Origin: a virus
DNA length: 31,914 nucleotides
IMG/VR virus record: IMGVR_UViG_3300025778_000056
Span: 1 to 31,914 of that record
Strand: one strand, 5' to 3'
Both the position numbers and the translations under genes were made by a program. Below are positions 4,754 through 31,914 of the stretch, piece after piece. Every line of letters begins with the position of its first letter. Positions within the stretch are counted from its first letter, which is position 1. A model generated the notes under the pieces. It worked only from the letters and a program-made list of their open reading frames with translations. It did no database searches and was not told where the DNA came from.

Positions 4754-5470
4754 ATGCACTATTACCAGTTTCATATTGGTGACTACAAGTCACATACGCA
4801 TCATTTAAATGTCATAGAAGATTGTGCTTTACGCAGACTTCTTGACCATTACTACCTCCATGAATCTCCCATAAAGCAACGCAATATTGCTAGACAAATT
4901 GGGATGTTGGAATATGAAGCAGAAGTTTTGTCCATTTTGGATGAGTTTTTCATTTCCACAGAAAATGGCTTCGTAAATCCAAGGGCAGATGAGGAAATTG
5001 CCAATTACCACTCTAAGGTTGACCAAGCATCTAGAGCTGGGAAAGCATCTGCTCAACGTAGGTTGAACACTCGTTCAACAGAAAGTGAACAGACGTTCAA
5101 CGCCCGTTCAACGGGCGTTCAACCAACCATTAACCATGAACCATTAACCAAGAACCATATATATAGTGATTTTGAAAAAATACTGAAAACAAAGCGAATA
5201 CCCTTAACTGACACACTCATAGCATCTATTCAACTTGAGGCTGACAAGGCTAAATGGTCAATCGAGGATGCTTTAAAAGAATGCTGTATTCGAGGATGGT
5301 CCACATTTAAGGCAGACTGGGTTATCAAGCCTGACATCATTCACCAGACAGTTCCTAGCAAACAAGGCAGAGACCCAACCCTTATAAAGCTAGAAAATGA
5401 TGCCAAAAACGCAGTTTCAATGCCTGATGAGATAAAAGCTAAATTTAAGATGATTAAGGGAAAAGTATGA
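4754..5470 (+). CDS. Phage replication protein, DUF1376 (YdaU-like)
   Basis: The 238-residue protein opens with a DUF1376 domain (about 1-80): MHYYQFHIGDYKSHTHHLNVIEDCALRRLLDHYYLHE, the HxGDYxxxTxHLxxxEDxAxRRLLDxYYLxE pattern of YdaU-type proteins. A low-complexity linker (about 95-135, rich in Asn, Thr, Arg) is encoded by the iteron cluster. The C-terminal domain (about 140-200) has a conserved DALKECCIRGWSTFKADWV segment, common in phage replication proteins next to helicase loaders. This layout (origin DNA inside the gene, between two domains) resembles lambda O. No helicase or loader gene is nearby, so host DnaB is probably used. The stop overlaps the next gene as ATGA. Confidence 0.75.
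   Translation: MHYYQFHIGDYKSHTHHLNVIEDCALRRLLDHYYLHESPIKQRNIARQIGMLEYEAEVLSILDEFFISTENGFVNPRADEEIANYHSKVDQASRAGKASAQRRLNTRSTESEQTFNARSTGVQPTINHEPLTKNHIYSDFEKILKTKRIPLTDTLIASIQLEADKAKWSIEDALKECCIRGWSTFKADWVIKPDIIHQTVPSKQGRDPTLIKLENDAKNAVSMPDEIKAKFKMIKGKV
5062..5200. repeat. Iteron cluster and AT-rich stretch: candidate replication origin
   Basis: GTTCAAC occurs at 5073-5079, 5095-5101, 5106-5112 and 5117-5123. The spacing is 22, 11 and 11 bases, so all copies are in phase with an 11-base period. An inverted copy, GTTGAAC, is at 5062-5068, and AACGCCCGTT-C-AACGGGCGTT (5099-5119) is a perfect palindrome around one base. Two copies of CCATTAACCA follow at 5127 and 5141. From about 5158 the DNA becomes AT-rich (ATATATATAG, then runs of A). 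This is the layout of lambda-type origins inside the initiator gene. Function is inferred. Confidence 0.6.
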
Positions 5471-6549
5471 AATTAATATCGACAATTGAACAAGACGAGA
5501 TTACTAAGAAATTATCACAATCATTTGATTATGAATTTGATGGTTCAGTTTCTTTTCAAGTACCCCTATTTGATGTTCCTGAACAATTTCAAATAGGCTT
5601 AATCGTAGGAGCTTCTGGATCAGGCAAGTCTAGTATCCTAAATACGATTGGTAAGGCTTCTAAAATCGAATGGAACAGCTCCAAAGCAATTTGTAGTCAT
5701 TTTGCTACCTCAGATGAGGCTCAAGACAAATTAAACGCTGTAGGGCTTAATTCAATCCCTTCATGGCTTAAACCTTATCATGTTTTGTCCACAGGAGAAA
5801 GGTTTAGGGCAGATTTGTCTAGATCATTGGTTGACAATGCAATCATTGATGAATTTACCAGTGTTGTTGACAGAAATGTAGCCAAGTCTTGCTCTTATGC
5901 AATCAATAGGTACATCAGAAAGTCAAACATTCAAAAAATGGTGTTTGCTTCTTGCCATTACGACATCATAGAATGGCTTCAACCAGATTGGGTTTTTGAT
6001 ACCAATACACACCGACTTACAGTCGGAAGGGGGTTAGAAAGGCCATCTTTACAGTTGGAAGTCGTTCCTTGCAATACCGAGGCATGGACAATCTTTTGCA
6101 ACCATCACTATCTCTCATCAAAGCTCAATAAAGGTTCACGATGTTGGCTCGCAACATGGGAAAACCAAGTTGTTGGATTTGCCTCAGCTATCCCTTTTCC
6201 CTCTGGATCACTGAAAAACGCATGGAAAGGCCACAGAACAGTGGTTTTACCTGATTTCCAAGGATTAGGCATTGGTGTACGATTAAGTGATGCAATAGGT
6301 CAAATATTTGTAAATGAGGGTTACAGATATTTCAGCAAATCAAGTCATGTCAGATTAGGTGAATATAGAAACAACAGCCCTAAATGGAGACCAACAGCTC
6401 ACAACATGAAAGACAGAAAACAATACTATAAAAAATTAAACGATATAGCCAATGGCGTATCTACAACTAAAGACTTTTATTCATCTGAATTGCGTAAAAA
6501 ACATGCTTCAAGGATTTGTTATTGCCATGAATACATCGGAATTTGTTGA
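5467..6549 (+). CDS. Soluble ABC ATPase fused to a GNAT-type acyltransferase
   Basis: The first half of this 360-residue protein is an ABC-type ATPase: Walker A GASGSGKSS (48-56), signature LSTGE (107-111), Walker B AIIDEF (125-130) and switch His164 in FASCHYD. There are no membrane spans and no permease gene, so it is not a transporter. The second half (about 200-310) is GNAT-like, with HHYLSSKL (213-220), a strand pair WLATWENQVVGFASAIP, and the acetyl-CoA-binding type loop VVLPDFQGLGIG (259-270), followed by SSHVR...NNSPKW. Phage Mom, which modifies adenine in DNA, has a GNAT-derived fold, and ABC-GNAT fusions are found in some phages. A DNA-modification role is therefore a reasonable hypothesis, not proven. 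The start overlaps the replication gene's stop; AAGGG precedes it. Confidence 0.8.
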   Translation: MKLISTIEQDEITKKLSQSFDYEFDGSVSFQVPLFDVPEQFQIGLIVGASGSGKSSILNTIGKASKIEWNSSKAICSHFATSDEAQDKLNAVGLNSIPSWLKPYHVLSTGERFRADLSRSLVDNAIIDEFTSVVDRNVAKSCSYAINRYIRKSNIQKMVFASCHYDIIEWLQPDWVFDTNTHRLTVGRGLERPSLQLEVVPCNTEAWTIFCNHHYLSSKLNKGSRCWLATWENQVVGFASAIPFPSGSLKNAWKGHRTVVLPDFQGLGIGVRLSDAIGQIFVNEGYRYFSKSSHVRLGEYRNNSPKWRPTAHNMKDRKQYYKKLNDIANGVSTTKDFYSSELRKKHASRICYCHEYIGIC

Positions 6550-7201: not shown

Positions 7202-7517
7202 AAGACATGCCCAATATATTTACGACAATGCTACCCAATATGGCTGGGCTAAATCAAACAGAATTGGTGTTGAACTTAAACTAAAAACAGCTAAGGCCAT
7301 GATTATGAAACAAGTAGCTGAGGAATTTAACCAGATTTCAGCTCAAGAAAGGGAGGCTTTAATTCATCCTGAGTACACCAAGCTAATCAATGATCTGATG
7401 CAAGCAGTAGCCATAGAGGAAGAACTCAAGTACAAGTTAGAGGCTTCTAGGCTGTCTATTGACATTTGGAGGACTAGAGAGGCATCTGAGAGACTTGGTA
7501 TAAGATCACATGAATGA
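7191..7517 (+). CDS. 108-residue helical phage protein, unknown function
   Basis: The product starts MTPERHAQYIYDNATQYGWAK and is helical throughout, with a coiled-coil-like central part (residues about 60-95: LINDLMQAVAIEEELKYKLEASRLSI) and IWRTREASER near the end. GGAG eight bases upstream supports the ATG at 7191. I recognise similar small proteins in phage replication regions without a known function. It overlaps the preceding membrane-protein gene and the following HNH-like gene (ATGA). Confidence 0.65.
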   Translation: MTPERHAQYIYDNATQYGWAKSNRIGVELKLKTAKAMIMKQVAEEFNQISAQEREALIHPEYTKLINDLMQAVAIEEELKYKLEASRLSIDIWRTREASERLGIRSHE

Positions 7518-7864
7518 TGTATCCTAAAACCCAATATATTCGCTCTAAGCACCTTTTACAGCTCGTTGCGATGATGAATTGCCAAAGGTGTGGGTTTCAT
7601 TTGGCACAGGCTTGTCACTCAAATTGGCATGGAGGAAAGGGTAGAGGAATAAAGGCTAGCGATAACTATATCGCCGCGCTCTGCCAGACCTGCCACCACG
7701 ACATCGACCAAGGCCATCTAATGACCAAGCAAGAAAGAATGCACGAATGGTATCAAGCTCACCTAAAGACCTTGCACTTCCTCTTGATCACTGATCAATG
7801 GCCTCGCAACATCCCAGTCACTGACCTCTATTTAGCCTTTTCTGAGGCTGGGAATACCTGCTGA
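7514..7864 (+). CDS. HNH-like zinc protein (putative nuclease)
   Basis: The 116-residue protein has two zinc pairs, C23-x2-C26 and C57-x2-C60 followed by His61 and His62. Between them lies ACHSNWHGGKGRGIKASDNYIAALC, with a His that could be catalytic, and DQGHLM follows. This is the layout of HNH-type nucleases seen in phage proteins such as the DUF968/Ref-like group; the precise family is uncertain. A role in nicking or processing phage DNA alongside RusA is plausible. It is the last rightward gene; its final 33 bases overlap the end of the oppositely oriented gene at 7832. Confidence 0.62.
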   Translation: MMYPKTQYIRSKHLLQLVAMMNCQRCGFHLAQACHSNWHGGKGRGIKASDNYIAALCQTCHHDIDQGHLMTKQERMHEWYQAHLKTLHFLLITDQWPRNIPVTDLYLAFSEAGNTC

Positions 7865-16470: not shown

Positions 16471-16688
16471 AGATTGTAAAAAGGCACTTTGTACTGTTTA
16501 CCATTTACAGTCACTTGCATGTACCCTGCTGGTGTTGAAGGTAGAGCTGGTGTTGTAGTGGTTGCTGAGAAATTTAGCATGTTCAAGAAAAATTGTTGCC
16601 AAGGCCTTGTAGGTCTTTTGGAACTTGCATCCAAAAACTCAGCTTGTGGGTAAGGATTAGTCTGTGGTGAGCCATAGGTATTAGCCAT
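16467..16688 (-). CDS. Small virion-region protein, unknown function
   Basis: The 73-residue product starts MANTYGSPQTNPYPQAEFLD, has a central RPTRPWQQFFLNMLNF, and ends in a beta-like hairpin (YMQVTVNGKQYKVPFYNL). It sits between the gp10-like protein and the GNAT gene with overlapping codons on both sides (TAATG before, ATGA after). Small proteins with the phrase (R)PWxxFFxxLxx are found next to tail genes in many podoviruses and may be structural. No function known. Confidence 0.6.
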   Translation of the reverse strand: MANTYGSPQTNPYPQAEFLDASSKRPTRPWQQFFLNMLNFSATTTTPALPSTPAGYMQVTVNGKQYKVPFYNL

Positions 16689-19600
16689 TAGTTCTCTCCT
16701 TGACTAGCCTTGAGGTTAGCAGAAATGATCGTAGCATTCACTGGATCAGTTACCACTACCTCAAAAATCTTGTCCCTAGACCATCCTAAACGCCTCCAGA
16801 TGGCACGATTCTTGTACTTGCCAATTTTACCAATGGATACCCAGTGCTCCTTAGACCATGTTGATCCACCATCATTGGACCATCTGAGCATGGCTTTAGG
16901 ATCAACACCTTGTGAACCTTCAAAGGCAGGACTAGGAATATTGTAGGCAGGAAACTGTAAAGTCAAAGCATTCAGCAAGGCAGTAGCTGTTTGAGCACTT
17001 GTAACTTGATGGTTTGCTGTGTACTGTGTTGGATAGCCTCCAGAGCCATTTACAGGTGTTCCTACAGTGACTTGAGTTGTGGTAACCCTGTTAGTCAAAG
17101 CAGTAGTTAAATTGACTGCAAAAGGCTGTATTGACGTTGGAGGTGCAAGTGTGTCGTTAGTGTTGTACCAAATGTAGAAGTGGCACTTGTTAGTGTAAAA
17201 GCTAGGAATGGTTTCCCATGTAGCTAACTGATAGTAAGGACTTGCTGTCAGTGGTGTTGTGTTTGCTGTGTAGGTGTTGATCAATCCTACACCAAATGAT
17301 CCAATAGGATTCGTAGCATCACCAGCACCAATGGTTACTAAGTTCATTGGACCATACAAATTCATACATGCTTTAGGCCATGTGCCATTTGTCGTAGCTT
17401 GTGCCATGACACCTTCAATTGCAAGGTAACCACCAGCACTGTTGCCAGCTACCATAAGGCCAAATTGTGCTACTTGTTGTTGTAGACTTGCCCACAAAGC
17501 ATTTTGACTTGGTGCTCCTAAATAACCAGCATTAGGATTTAACAAGAAATTGATAACTTGAGCAATGTCATTTACGTCATTAGGATAGTCACCAGATGGA
17601 GTTAGCCTGTAGTTTGTAGAAATAACGACATAGTTAGCTAACACAATAGGATTGTAAATAGCAGTGTCACTAGCCTTGTCACCACCACTCCATCCACCAC
17701 CATGTATCCAAAGGACAACTCCATTAGGCATTTGACCATTCTTGTTGACAGCATCCCATGAGCTTGGGCTAATGATGTCTACTTTTTGAAGTGGGTCAGT
17801 CCCATAGGGTACGTCAGAAATTGTTGCACCTAAAGAAGGAGCACCTAAAGAAACTCCTGAAAAAGAAGTTGGAGTAGAGGATGGTATAGAGTAGCCTTGG
17901 CCTGTTTGAGAATTTCCACTGATTGCGTATCCTGAGATGGCAATGCCAGCTATGCCTGAAGTGGTATAACTTGCATTTGGGTTTGACAATCCCACTGCTG
18001 GCATAAACTGAATCTGCAATTCCTCAAAATATTGACGTTGCAAATCAGAAACCAAATGTGGTGCTCTCCTTAGTCTCCTAATCTCTTGACCATTGTCAGT
18101 GTAGTTATTAGGGTCTAACTCGTACAAATTACCATTTTGGTAGTCACCAACATAAACTAAACCATTAAATACAGCACAACAGTTGCCACGATGTCTGTGG
18201 TAAACATTATTATTATCTACAGCAAGCCACTTGTGCCACATGCCTGTGGTGTTGTCCCATACCCATGTCAAGTCAATACTTGGAAAGGTAATTACATAGC
18301 ACTCATGGCCTTCTAGTTGATAGGTCCAAGCAATAGCATCTGAGATGTTTTGGTTGACAAGGGTGTTTTCAACTGCGTGAGTGGAGATGCGAGTAGGCAC
18401 ATACCCATTCATCATTACAACTTGGCCTTGGCCTCGTTGGTTTCTAGAGAGGTATGCAAAGGAGTTGCCAACACGAGAGACTGAGAATTTGGCAATGATG
18501 CCATGCTGTGTGGAGGTGCCGGGGATTCGCTGGAAAGGAAACGGAAAGCTCCCCACATCCACCCACACCTCACTCGATACCTCACCTAGTAAGTACACCT
18601 CACGATGGTCAACAATTAGTGATACCAAGTTATCTGGAGCACCATCCTTGCTACTAAACTGCAAAGGAGCTGACAATGTGCTCAACAAATTACTCGATCC
18701 CCATTGCTGTGTATTTGGCCTGTTATAGACAAATATATTGTCCACAATGTCCACCACATCAGCACCTGTAAACGCTCCATCTGTGCTTGGCAAAATCGAA
18801 AAAGCAGAAGCAGTCAGTGTTGATAAGTTACCAAGTGGTGATATGTTAGCAAGGGCAGATGCTCCTGAACCTGATCCACCACTAAAATTCAAAGCAGGGT
18901 TTGATGTATAAAATGATCCACCATTAGCAATTGAATAATCATTGTTAAGGCTGAACGTCAAGGTTATAGAAGCACCTTTGCCTGTTCCACCACTGAATGA
19001 TGTAGCACCACTTGGAGCAACTGTGTAAGTTCCTACATTGTAAATAGAGACACCAGTAATCACACCACTAGAAACTGTTGTGACCTTGAGCTGACAAGCA
19101 GTTGTGTAAGTTCCACCAAAGCCAGTGATGATGTCACCAACTGTGTATCCTGTTCCACCAGATGTAATTGTTGTAGACACAACTCCTATTGAGTTCCAAG
19201 TCACTGATGCAACAGTACCACCAAAAGGAGGGTTAGCAATTGTGACTGAAGGGACTGTTGTATAACCTGTGCCAGCATTTAATAGATTAATTGCTACAAC
19301 ACTGCCATTGGTTACATAGTTGTTGATGGAGTAAAGACCTAAACCATTTCCACTTGTAGGGACTGAGGTAATGATCGTGTTTGGAGGTATGTTTGTGCCT
19401 GTGATGGTCTGACCAACTACCAAAGGTCCAGAAATAATGCCTGTGACATTGATCTGATAACCAGAGATATTACCAATGAAAGAAGTGGTAATGTAGGAGC
19501 TGATGTAAACACTGTACCTGTTAACACCATCTGTGATCATCACATAAAGGCCATTGTCAGCAATGCCAACTCTGCCTGTTGTAGTGGTGAGGTTACCAAG

Positions 19601-19876
19601 GGTAAAAAGGTTGCCAAGAGTATCAAGAGCATAAACACCAGAGCCACAGACTGCAATCAAGTATTTACCACCAGAAAGGGTGCGTAGGCCTCGAACTTCA
19701 GCAGTTTGGGGAAGGGCAGTTAACAGCGTGAGACCCGGCGTAGGGTAGAGTGCCACCACCCCCCTTTGACCTGCTTGCTTGAGTGGGTCTATTTCAGGGC
19801 GAAAGTTAATACACTCCTGATCATCTTGGTAGATGGATGGAGAAGTATACGATGGGCCAACAAACCCAAAGTCCAT
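16688..19876 (-). CDS. P22 gp10-like tail protein with inserted esterase domain
   Basis: The outer parts of this 1062-residue protein match the P22 gp10 (packaged-DNA stabilisation) family: MDFGFVGPSYTSPS...DDQECINFRPE at the start, VWVDVGSFPFPFQRIPGTSTQHGI (437-460), YQLEGHECYVITFP (519-532) and the C-terminal MLRWSNDGGSTWSKEHW (996-1012). Two insertions enlarge it. Residues about 132-345 form a beta-rich, Gly/Thr/Ser repeat region. Residues about 675-980 form an alpha/beta-hydrolase: HGGGW oxyanion motif (725-729), nucleophile elbow GNSAGG with Ser813, and candidate Asp908 and His956. The insertion lies between QFMPAVGL and the DPKAMLRWS segment, which normally are adjacent in the family. 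The protein would sit in the tail and expose an esterase, perhaps removing acyl groups from host surface glycans. That role is inferred. Confidence 0.85.
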   Translation of the reverse strand: MDFGFVGPSYTSPSIYQDDQECINFRPEIDPLKQAGQRGVVALYPTPGLTLLTALPQTAEVRGLRTLSGGKYLIAVCGSGVYALDTLGNLFTLGNLTTTTGRVGIADNGLYVMITDGVNRYSVYISSYITTSFIGNISGYQINVTGIISGPLVVGQTITGTNIPPNTIITSVPTSGNGLGLYSINNYVTNGSVVAINLLNAGTGYTTVPSVTIANPPFGGTVASVTWNSIGVVSTTITSGGTGYTVGDIITGFGGTYTTACQLKVTTVSSGVITGVSIYNVGTYTVAPSGATSFSGGTGKGASITLTFSLNNDYSIANGGSFYTSNPALNFSGGSGSGASALANISPLGNLSTLTASAFSILPSTDGAFTGADVVDIVDNIFVYNRPNTQQWGSSNLLSTLSAPLQFSSKDGAPDNLVSLIVDHREVYLLGEVSSEVWVDVGSFPFPFQRIPGTSTQHGIIAKFSVSRVGNSFAYLSRNQRGQGQVVMMNGYVPTRISTHAVENTLVNQNISDAIAWTYQLEGHECYVITFPSIDLTWVWDNTTGMWHKWLAVDNNNVYHRHRGNCCAVFNGLVYVGDYQNGNLYELDPNNYTDNGQEIRRLRRAPHLVSDLQRQYFEELQIQFMPAVGLSNPNASYTTSGIAGIAISGYAISGNSQTGQGYSIPSSTPTSFSGVSLGAPSLGATISDVPYGTDPLQKVDIISPSSWDAVNKNGQMPNGVVLWIHGGGWSGGDKASDTAIYNPIVLANYVVISTNYRLTPSGDYPNDVNDIAQVINFLLNPNAGYLGAPSQNALWASLQQQVAQFGLMVAGNSAGGYLAIEGVMAQATTNGTWPKACMNLYGPMNLVTIGAGDATNPIGSFGVGLINTYTANTTPLTASPYYQLATWETIPSFYTNKCHFYIWYNTNDTLAPPTSIQPFAVNLTTALTNRVTTTQVTVGTPVNGSGGYPTQYTANHQVTSAQTATALLNALTLQFPAYNIPSPAFEGSQGVDPKAMLRWSNDGGSTWSKEHWVSIGKIGKYKNRAIWRRLGWSRDKIFEVVVTDPVNATIISANLKASQGEN
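16937..17854 (-). other. Inserted alpha/beta-hydrolase (esterase) domain
   Basis: This stretch encodes residues about 675-980 of the gp10-like protein. It begins in a linker, enters with VPYGTDPLQKVDIISP (a start typical of acyl/feruloyl esterase-like hydrolases), has HGGGW, NYRLTP, GNSAGG, then WYNTNDTLAPP with the Asp and YTANHQ with the His. All catalytic parts are present in the right order. Boundaries are approximate. Confidence 0.8.
18842..19483 (-). other. Inserted beta-rich repeat region in the gp10-like protein
   Basis: Residues about 132-345 interrupt the family's N-terminal beta-propeller-like part. First comes a unit of about 60 residues (NISGYQINVTGIISG...GTNIPPNTIITS) that resembles the insertion in the gp4-like protein. 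Then come at least four looser units of the GxGYTxxPxVxI kind (around 202, 241, 282 and 320). Probably surface decoration or an adhesive module; function unknown. Confidence 0.6.
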
Positions 19877-30572: not shown

Positions 30573-31667
30573 TTAAGCTGCAACACGGCAAGCGAGTTCA
30601 GGATAAAGCGGGGCCCAGCCATACAACACATCTAAACGCGTAGGAATACTATCGTTATTGATGGTGTACTGACGAACCACACGCATTGACAAACCGATTT
30701 CCTTGTCAGAAGCGCGACCAGCAAAGTGGACACCCTCTGGCAACTCAAGATCAGCGACTGCCAATGTGAACGCATTGCGGTGCATAATGATATTCTGTGG
30801 TGAGACAGTACCAGTATTGTTGAAAGGTGTTACTGTTGAAGCACCAGCGTTAGTCACGCTAACGTTCTGGAACTGACCAGCAGTAATCACGGCAGGGCTA
30901 ACAGTCACGCTTGTAGTGCCTGATGTTGCCACAGTAGCGGCAGCAGTAACAACAAAGTTGCGTAGCTTGTTAGAACCATAAGCCTGGCGATTCTGGGGGT
31001 TGACAGCGTACACGTTAGCAATTTGGATAACGTCACCAACGTTCAACGATGCGCTTGCAGTTGTTGCTGACAAGGCGATAGTTGAAGATGATGCCCAACC
31101 AGAGGTTAGGAATCCAGTTGCAGTCGATGTATTGCATGACAACACGGCAGTCGAATAAGAACCGAATGTTTGTGAAACAACGTTCTGATCCATCTTCCAG
31201 TTCATACCAGCAGAGTCACGACCCATCAAACCCTTGCGATACTGTTCGCCAATTGCTTCTTGGGGCACAAATAGACCCTTCAAAGAATCAACGATTGTGG
31301 CGCTTGTGAAAGGTTCAACGATACATGAGCGGCGGCCATCCCTAGGTGCGCCTTCAGCGTCAAGGTAAGCAGCAGCAGTCAAGTATGTGATCAAACCTGT
31401 AGGAGGTGTACCAGCTGTACCAACGATATTGGCCGTGTTGTTCTTGGCCATCACCAAGCCGTCACGATCAATCTTGTTAGCAATAGCTGCAACAGCGGGT
31501 TTCAACACGCGGTCACTAAACATATCAAGACTTAGCGCCAAATCTTGCGTGGTGAATTGAGTATCAACGTGGAATTGAGTGCTCAAAGTCACGGGTACGC
31601 TAGACTCATTAAAGTCTTCAACATTCAAAGCCGGGCCTGTTGTCCCGATGAACCTTCCGGGTCGTCT
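30573..31667 (-). CDS. Major capsid protein, P22 coat-like, 3' exon
   Basis: The 364-residue part seen is RRPGRFIGTTGPALNVEDFNESSVPVTL..., which matches the P22 coat (gene 5) family from about its residue 60 on. Family phrases are TGPALNVxDxxExSVPxTL, LSLDMFSDRVLKPAVAAIANKID (about 46-68), the middle I-domain-like part, SPQNIIMHRNAFTLAVADLELPEGV (about 286-310), and the C-terminal QYTINNDSIPTRLDVLYGW. P22 coat is about 430 residues, so about 60 N-terminal residues are missing here. They should lie in a 5' exon to the right, because the sequence just upstream is not coding and folds as a group I intron. The frame ends at TAA near 30573. Translation from the GTG at 31668-31670 is not expected. 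Confidence 0.85.
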   Translation of the reverse strand, partial: RRPGRFIGTTGPALNVEDFNESSVPVTLSTQFHVDTQFTTQDLALSLDMFSDRVLKPAVAAIANKIDRDGLVMAKNNTANIVGTAGTPPTGLITYLTAAAYLDAEGAPRDGRRSCIVEPFTSATIVDSLKGLFVPQEAIGEQYRKGLMGRDSAGMNWKMDQNVVSQTFGSYSTAVLSCNTSTATGFLTSGWASSSTIALSATTASASLNVGDVIQIANVYAVNPQNRQAYGSNKLRNFVVTAAATVATSGTTSVTVSPAVITAGQFQNVSVTNAGASTVTPFNNTGTVSPQNIIMHRNAFTLAVADLELPEGVHFAGRASDKEIGLSMRVVRQYTINNDSIPTRLDVLYGWAPLYPELACRVAA

Positions 31668-31914
31668 CACATTTCAAACCCTGTTACTTTCGGCATTTCA
31701 GCCTACTGACCATTGCTGGCGGGGAAACTTCTTCGAATCTCCCTCTGTGGTTTCATGCTTAGTTATAGCCACAGTTCAGACTATCGCTTACACCTTTCGA
31801 TGTCCCTCTCACTTAGTCGTTCAGGCTGCTTTCGCTTGCCCCTTGTTACCTACTACTAGGACTCCAAGTCAATCAGAGAGGGTTTATACACAGCAAATAT
31901 GATCCTACTGTGTT
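31668..31914 (-). ncRNA. Group I self-splicing intron in the coat gene (3' part; runs off right edge)
   Basis: On the minus strand this stretch forms the group I core in the right order. P2: ACACAG/CUGUGU (31913-31908 with 31893-31888). P3: CCCUCUC/GAGAGGG (31882-31876 with 31810-31804). P5-like hairpin CCUA/UAGG and a P6-like hairpin with a GAAA loop (near 31828-31835). P7: GACUA/UAGUC (31818-31814 with 31783-31779). P8: ACAUC-GAAA-GGUGU (31803-31790). P9: CUGUGG/CCACAG (31774-31769 with 31750-31745). The 3' splice site is at about 31668, where the intron's last G precedes AGACGACCC of the exon. P1 and the 5' splice site lie beyond the edge. No protein frame is visible in this part. Confidence 0.85.

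Follow-up and report, generated by a model that had tools for sequence, protein, structure and literature searches.

A compact group I intron in the coat gene of a freshwater P22-like phage and, in relatives, a coreless insert that appears to depend on a neighbouring intron

In the genome of a freshwater, P22-like podovirus, the gene coding for the coat protein is almost certainly interrupted by a complete and compact group I intron, which is predicted to be self-splicing. The window analysed here is the entire virus record of 31,914 bases; it may be a fragment, and the contig ends inside the coat gene. In one lineage of relatives, a tiny coreless insert in the same gene appears to be dependent on the catalytic core of the intron next to it.

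Profile searches matched the coat frame of the window to PF11651 (6.8e-30) and phrog_283 (1.5e-60). As the preliminary description had observed, this frame begins abruptly; its first residues are VRRPGRF. The N-terminus that runs directly into VRRPGRF in intact relatives (...AKIGNTVN), however, comprises 49 residues rather than the about 60 that were thought to be missing, and in the window 232 nt lie between the two. Of the initial set of 80 relatives, nearly all possess this N-terminus without interruption. The intron splits the coat codon V48 after its second base, and the joined exons (AAC ACA GT/A AAT GTG AGA CGA CCC GG, with the slash at the junction) encode NTVNVRRPG, the same as in the intact relatives. 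Its 5' splice site is located 8 nt from the contig end, and these eight bases represent the end of the 5' exon; at this position, intact relatives read, for example, AACACAGTAAACGTT. The 3' exon is an open frame of 365 codons. P1 is formed by exon ACACAGU and intron GCUGUGU with a U.G pair at the splice site, and the intron terminates in an omega-G (GTAACAGGGTTTG/AAATGTG). The features of the interrupted gene are as follows (window coordinates):

31907-31914, minus strand: 3' end of the coat 5' exon, AACACAGT, of which the last 7 nt are the P1 exon strand
31675-31906, minus strand: complete group I intron of 232 nt without an open reading frame, ending in omega-G
30573-31674, minus strand: 3' exon of the P22-like coat gene, beginning with the third base of V48 and including the stop codon
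31888-31894, minus strand: internal guide sequence GCUGUGU, pairing with exon ACACAGU (P1)
31895-31901, minus strand: P10 strand CAUAUUU, which can pair with AAAUGUG of the 3' exon (31674-31668); judged on sequence only, without covariation
31876-31882, minus strand: P3 5' strand CCCUCUC, partner 31810-31804; two-sided changes in 6 of 7 pairs, 99.1% paired
31804-31810, minus strand: P3 3' strand GAGAGGG, pairing with 31876-31882
31814-31818, minus strand: P7 5' strand GACUA, partner 31783-31779, forming a pseudoknot with P3; invariant, 100% paired
31779-31783, minus strand: P7 3' strand UAGUC, pairing with 31814-31818
31842-31868, minus strand: P4-P5 region; P5 with two-sided changes in 4 of 5 pairs, P4 nearly invariant
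31790-31803, minus strand: P8 hairpin; two-sided changes in 5 of 5 pairs, 81.9% paired
31745-31774, minus strand: P9 hairpin; two-sided changes in 5 of 6 pairs, 100% paired
31722-31743, minus strand: P9.1 hairpin; two-sided changes in 6 of 8 pairs

The catalytic core was evaluated in an alignment of 33 sister introns, covering ten helices and 50 pairs from P3 to P9.3. Across these introns, the P3-P9.3 structure with its interleaved P3 and P7 is paired in 95.8% of the cells, and two-sided changes were found in 34 of the 50 pairs. None of 500 shuffles equalled this structure, and when the partners were shifted by 1-3 columns, the pairing fell to 35-47%. The covarying core, P1 with its U.G pair, the omega-G and the exact restoration of NTVNVRRPG in the host gene place the window intron in group I, and they bear out the preliminary description, which had proposed such an intron in the major capsid gene. 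The helices listed there, including the interleaved P3 and P7, are present except for P2, which is absent from the window intron and present in sister introns at most other sites. The stretch upstream of the coat frame is indeed non-coding, but it measures 232 nt instead of 247, and the interval 31580-31914 does not hold as a whole. Furthermore, P1 and the 5' side had been expected beyond the window, whereas the intron is complete at 31906-31675, and the window also includes the last bases of the 5' exon. During splicing, a guanosine would attack after the exon U, P10 would align the 3' exon and the final G would mark the 3' site, with P3-P9.3 serving as the core.

A search of the window with the Rfam model RF00028 gave no match even at E <= 10, and the same was true for three further loci carrying sister introns. 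Nor does the model detect the sister intron that lies in the split ribonucleotide reductase (RNR) gene of Roseobacter phage CRP-118. As a positive control, a different-class intron of the same coat gene in contig L179 was matched with 82 bits. This group I intron is located at coat codon 36 (L179:1380-1676). The Rfam group I model has been described as incomplete in a 2025 study (PMC11878797), and we treated RF00028 as a detection aid and not as a definition of group I introns. The covariance-model check suggested in the preliminary description was thus carried out and is uninformative: because the model misses this whole class of introns, a failed search refutes nothing, and we rejected it as the deciding test.

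Searching viral contigs with a pattern derived from the conserved core gave at least 119 matching stretches, and coat introns were obtained by spliced alignment of the listed pattern matches and later loci. Among the matches listed, coat genes contain 63 core introns, distributed over 11 sites (codons 36, 39, 48 (the window), 51, 85, 109, 205, 354, 382, 386 and 391), with up to three introns per coat gene. All 63 of these listed introns are preceded by U and end in G, and their splicing restores the frame. They are 215-288 nt long, and the longest open stretch is 92 amino acids, partial frames included, so that a typical endonuclease gene cannot fit into the listed coat introns. Likewise, no homing endonuclease frame was found inside the 232-nt window intron. 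The homing endonuclease suspected just outside the window can be set aside for this intron, as its end falls within the window and as the 63 listed coat introns offer no room for a typical one. Nor is the window intron a one-off: sister introns occur at no fewer than 11 sites of the same gene and in other virion genes. We also checked the flanking frames in 57 listed intron contigs without a P22-like coat match; they belonged to another major head protein family in 13 of the 57 contigs, to tape measure proteins in six, to P22-type portal proteins in five and to ribonucleotide reductase in three. In bacterial and archaeal genomes, the core pattern matched three MAG contigs.

Several individual loci were recorded in the course of this survey. 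At L345:4690-4892, two sister introns flank an exon of just 50-60 nt or so; the gene concerned is not the P22-like coat gene. In MW202674.1 (L082:2854-4369), the coat gene is annotated as two P22 coat coding sequences plus a hypothetical protein within the unrecognised intron, and in OR420741.1 (L201:3010-5083) the RNR gene is annotated as two coding sequences, the intron again being unrecognised.

Two other explanations for the window intron were weighed against these data. One holds that the coat gene of the window has become a pseudogene without activity or is an artefact of assembly, which could be suspected from the fact that the window is a contig fragment ending within the gene. We consider this hardly credible in view of the 3' exon, which is still open over its entire length, the sister introns in dozens of contigs, and the identical intron that two other contigs (L125 and L172) carry with exactly the same boundaries. 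According to the other, which takes up the control on coat production suggested in the preliminary description, the intron has a regulatory function and limits or times the synthesis of coat protein. An in-frame stop is located 0-17 codons from the 5' site in all listed coat introns and could couple translation to splicing; such stops are, however, expected merely to protect intron folding, and an intron at this site is missing from nearly all of the initial 80 relatives. A regulatory role appears improbable to us, and we prefer the reading of a self-splicing group I intron in a functional coat gene.

Comparison with other contigs bears on how this intron moves. Relative to contig L013, which is without this intron, the window shows 14 differences in the 60 positions beside the intron and two in the next 60. 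Relative to L125 with its identical intron, there are no differences in the 60 positions beside the intron and then two in 60, while 42 of 240 sites differ further along the coat gene. This pattern indicates joint movement of the intron and the adjoining exon sequence, of the kind produced by homing or recombination. For the window intron, recombination is the most likely mode of spread, and the driver is perhaps an endonuclease with its gene at another location. An HNH-type protein is encoded at 7514-7864 of the window, and nothing ties this protein to the intron.

Annotation of the window brought up two further genes. On the minus strand, 16688-19876 encodes a head-closure protein (Hc3-like, phrog_578) that also has an alpha/beta-hydrolase (BD-FAE/esterase) domain near residues 700-930. 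On the plus strand, 5467-6549 encodes an N-terminal ABC/P-loop-like region together with a GNAT acetyltransferase domain (phrog_11143). In the two contigs sharing the window intron, we additionally noted an 11-nt insert at codon 34 (GAT/CTATAAACCTG/CAG; L125:5918-5939 and L172:570-591), which lies 38 nt upstream of the intron and has U...G ends. It is represented by one distinct sequence, with no covariation in L125 and L172. A P1 for this insert (CGACGAU with GUUGUCG) is not claimed, since the intact L013 can form most of it and covariation is lacking.

The evidence for a coreless insert comes from relatives that carry an intron at codon 51 of the coat gene; the window intron is located at codon 48, and 8 nt of its 5' exon lie in the window. 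A complete scan for the codon-51 intron returned 66 contigs, comprising 50 with an additional insert at codon 40 (L092, L103, L316, L344 and 46 others), 11 with a codon-51 intron lacking the insert and five with the intron in other genes. Coat genes with both the codon-40 insert and the codon-51 intron are referred to as composites in the following. One form of the codon-51 intron is accompanied by the insert in 50 of 50 contigs. The insert has a length of 32-41 nt, is placed after the second base of codon 40 and has no catalytic core of its own. Its final base is G, and the 5' exon ends in U. Where the insert is missing, the codon-51 intron starts with TAA, an in-frame stop; in the composites this intron starts with AAAA or AAAT and the stop sits in the insert.

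Among 21 distinct composites, three helices link the insert to the exons around it. The first, P1', pairs exon GCNGUGRU with insert GYCUCNG, has a U.G pair at the site and is fully paired except for a U.U mismatch that is invariant in 21/21. The second, P10', joins NCCU of the insert to AGGN of the 3' exon and is paired in every cell; its fourth pair occurs as GU, AU, UA, CG and GC. The third, helix X, consists of 9 bp between the 3' half of the insert and the 34-nt exon preceding the codon-51 intron and is paired in all cells but one. Its third pair, located at the third base of codon V48, runs through all four Watson-Crick combinations. When the inserts were permuted among the exons 20,000 times, the observed scores were never reached, and RNAalifold recovered P1', X and the main P1 unprompted. 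On a tree of 29 composites, which is roughened by recombination, each of the varying pairs has changed at least 1-8 times, and all of the pair states listed on it are standard pairs. In addition, V39 is encoded by GTG in all composites compared to 3 of 69 distinct intact genes. We infer that the codon-40 insert is spliced like a group I intron, yet we do not class it as one because it has no core. No natural coreless group I intron was found in the open-access literature.

We consider it probable that the single core of the codon-51 intron removes the coreless 32-41 nt intron and then itself, in series. Splicing, the action of this core on both elements, its operation in cis and the order of events are all predicted from the sequences. 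In sister introns with P2, the order of elements is P1, P2 hairpin, AAAA and P3; the composites have P1', then helix X, the main P1, AAAAA and P3, which means that the position of P2 is taken by X and the main P1 together. The codon-51 core would accordingly be presented first with the insert's own P1', with X and the main P1 replacing P2. Once the core had excised the insert, X would be gone and P1 would be joined directly to P3. The core would then excise itself from the same P1-P3 arrangement that is seen in codon-51 introns without the insert. The U.U mismatch in P1' of every distinct composite counts against this mechanism, and the perfect co-occurrence of insert and intron could partly reflect common descent because the two are only 34 nt apart. 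Two variants were discarded. Splicing directly from codon 40 to the far 3' site, with the small exon skipped, would shift the frame, because codon 40 is split after its second base and the codon-51 intron lies between codons. A loop-loop kiss between the insert and the main intron (CCU with AGG) was dropped, as the AGG can pair with ACCU of the 3' exon as P10.

The codon-40 insert could also be skipped by the ribosome instead of being spliced, in a translational bypass like that of T4 gene 60. An in-frame stop directly after codon 40 or one codon later, insert lengths that are not always multiples of three and the presence of hairpins would all suit such a bypass. The codon before the resumed frame, however, is TGA, which differs from the last codon (GTA, or ATA in L344), and a bypass predicts neither the covariation of P10', nor the U/G rule at the splice sites, nor the co-occurrence with a core 34 nt downstream, which makes it very unlikely. 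Removal of the insert in trans, by a free spliced group I intron rather than by the adjacent core, is a more serious alternative, and engineered group I ribozymes do perform trans excision-splicing according to literature cited in two reports (PMC4094466, PMC6155759). The core nevertheless adjoins the insert in all 50 composites, and helix X together with the missing P2 fits a cis topology, so that we regard removal in trans as possible but doubtful and prefer serial excision by the adjacent codon-51 core.

The window intron is a further case of a known kind, as introns in phage capsid genes have already been reported. In mycobacteriophage LittleE, a group I intron with efficient in vivo splicing is reported from the major capsid gene (Pope et al. 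2013, PMC3706429). It resembles the window intron in its host gene, in the U ending exon 1 and in the G ending the intron, but differs in having an endonuclease frame and in occupying one site of a siphovirus capsid gene; in contrast to the codon-51 relatives analysed here, the LittleE description as consulted is also without a coreless partner insert. Zeta-group crAss-like phages have several introns in one MCP gene (Yutin et al. 2021, PMC7886860), similar to the multiple introns per coat gene found here. While those introns were recognised via endonuclease domains (PMC7886860), the coat introns of this study have no open reading frame, measure 215-288 nt and belong nearly all to one Rfam-undetected family distributed over at least 11 sites across relatives. 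The intron of Roseobacter phage CRP-118 (OR420741) shares this core family, with 71.8% identity over about 107 nt; it interrupts a different host gene, lying between the two annotated RNR halves, and is unannotated in the record.

The proposed serial excision can likewise be compared to known systems. In trans excision-splicing (PMC4094466, PMC6155759), too, a short stretch inside an RNA is cut out by a group I core via P1- and P10-type pairing; that system is described as engineered and acts in trans, whereas the natural case proposed here would act on the same transcript, after which the core would remove itself. Trans-spliced group I introns are known from mitochondrial cox1 of Helicosporidium, Isoetes and Trichoplax (PMC2813288), and these are also a natural departure from the scheme of one contiguous intron with one core (PMC2813288). 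In cox1, one core comes in two pieces, while in the composites one core appears to serve two introns.

Overall, members of this intron family have settled at 11 or more sites within a single essential and highly expressed gene. The family is compact, free of open reading frames and invisible to Rfam, so that coat genes with such an intron can be expected to be annotated as broken or split. If the proposed mechanism is true, the coreless element would stand to group I introns as minimal group III introns stand to group II introns. The composites would then be a natural example, open to testing, of a single ribozyme working on two introns, and would bear on the origin of dependent introns from autonomous ones.
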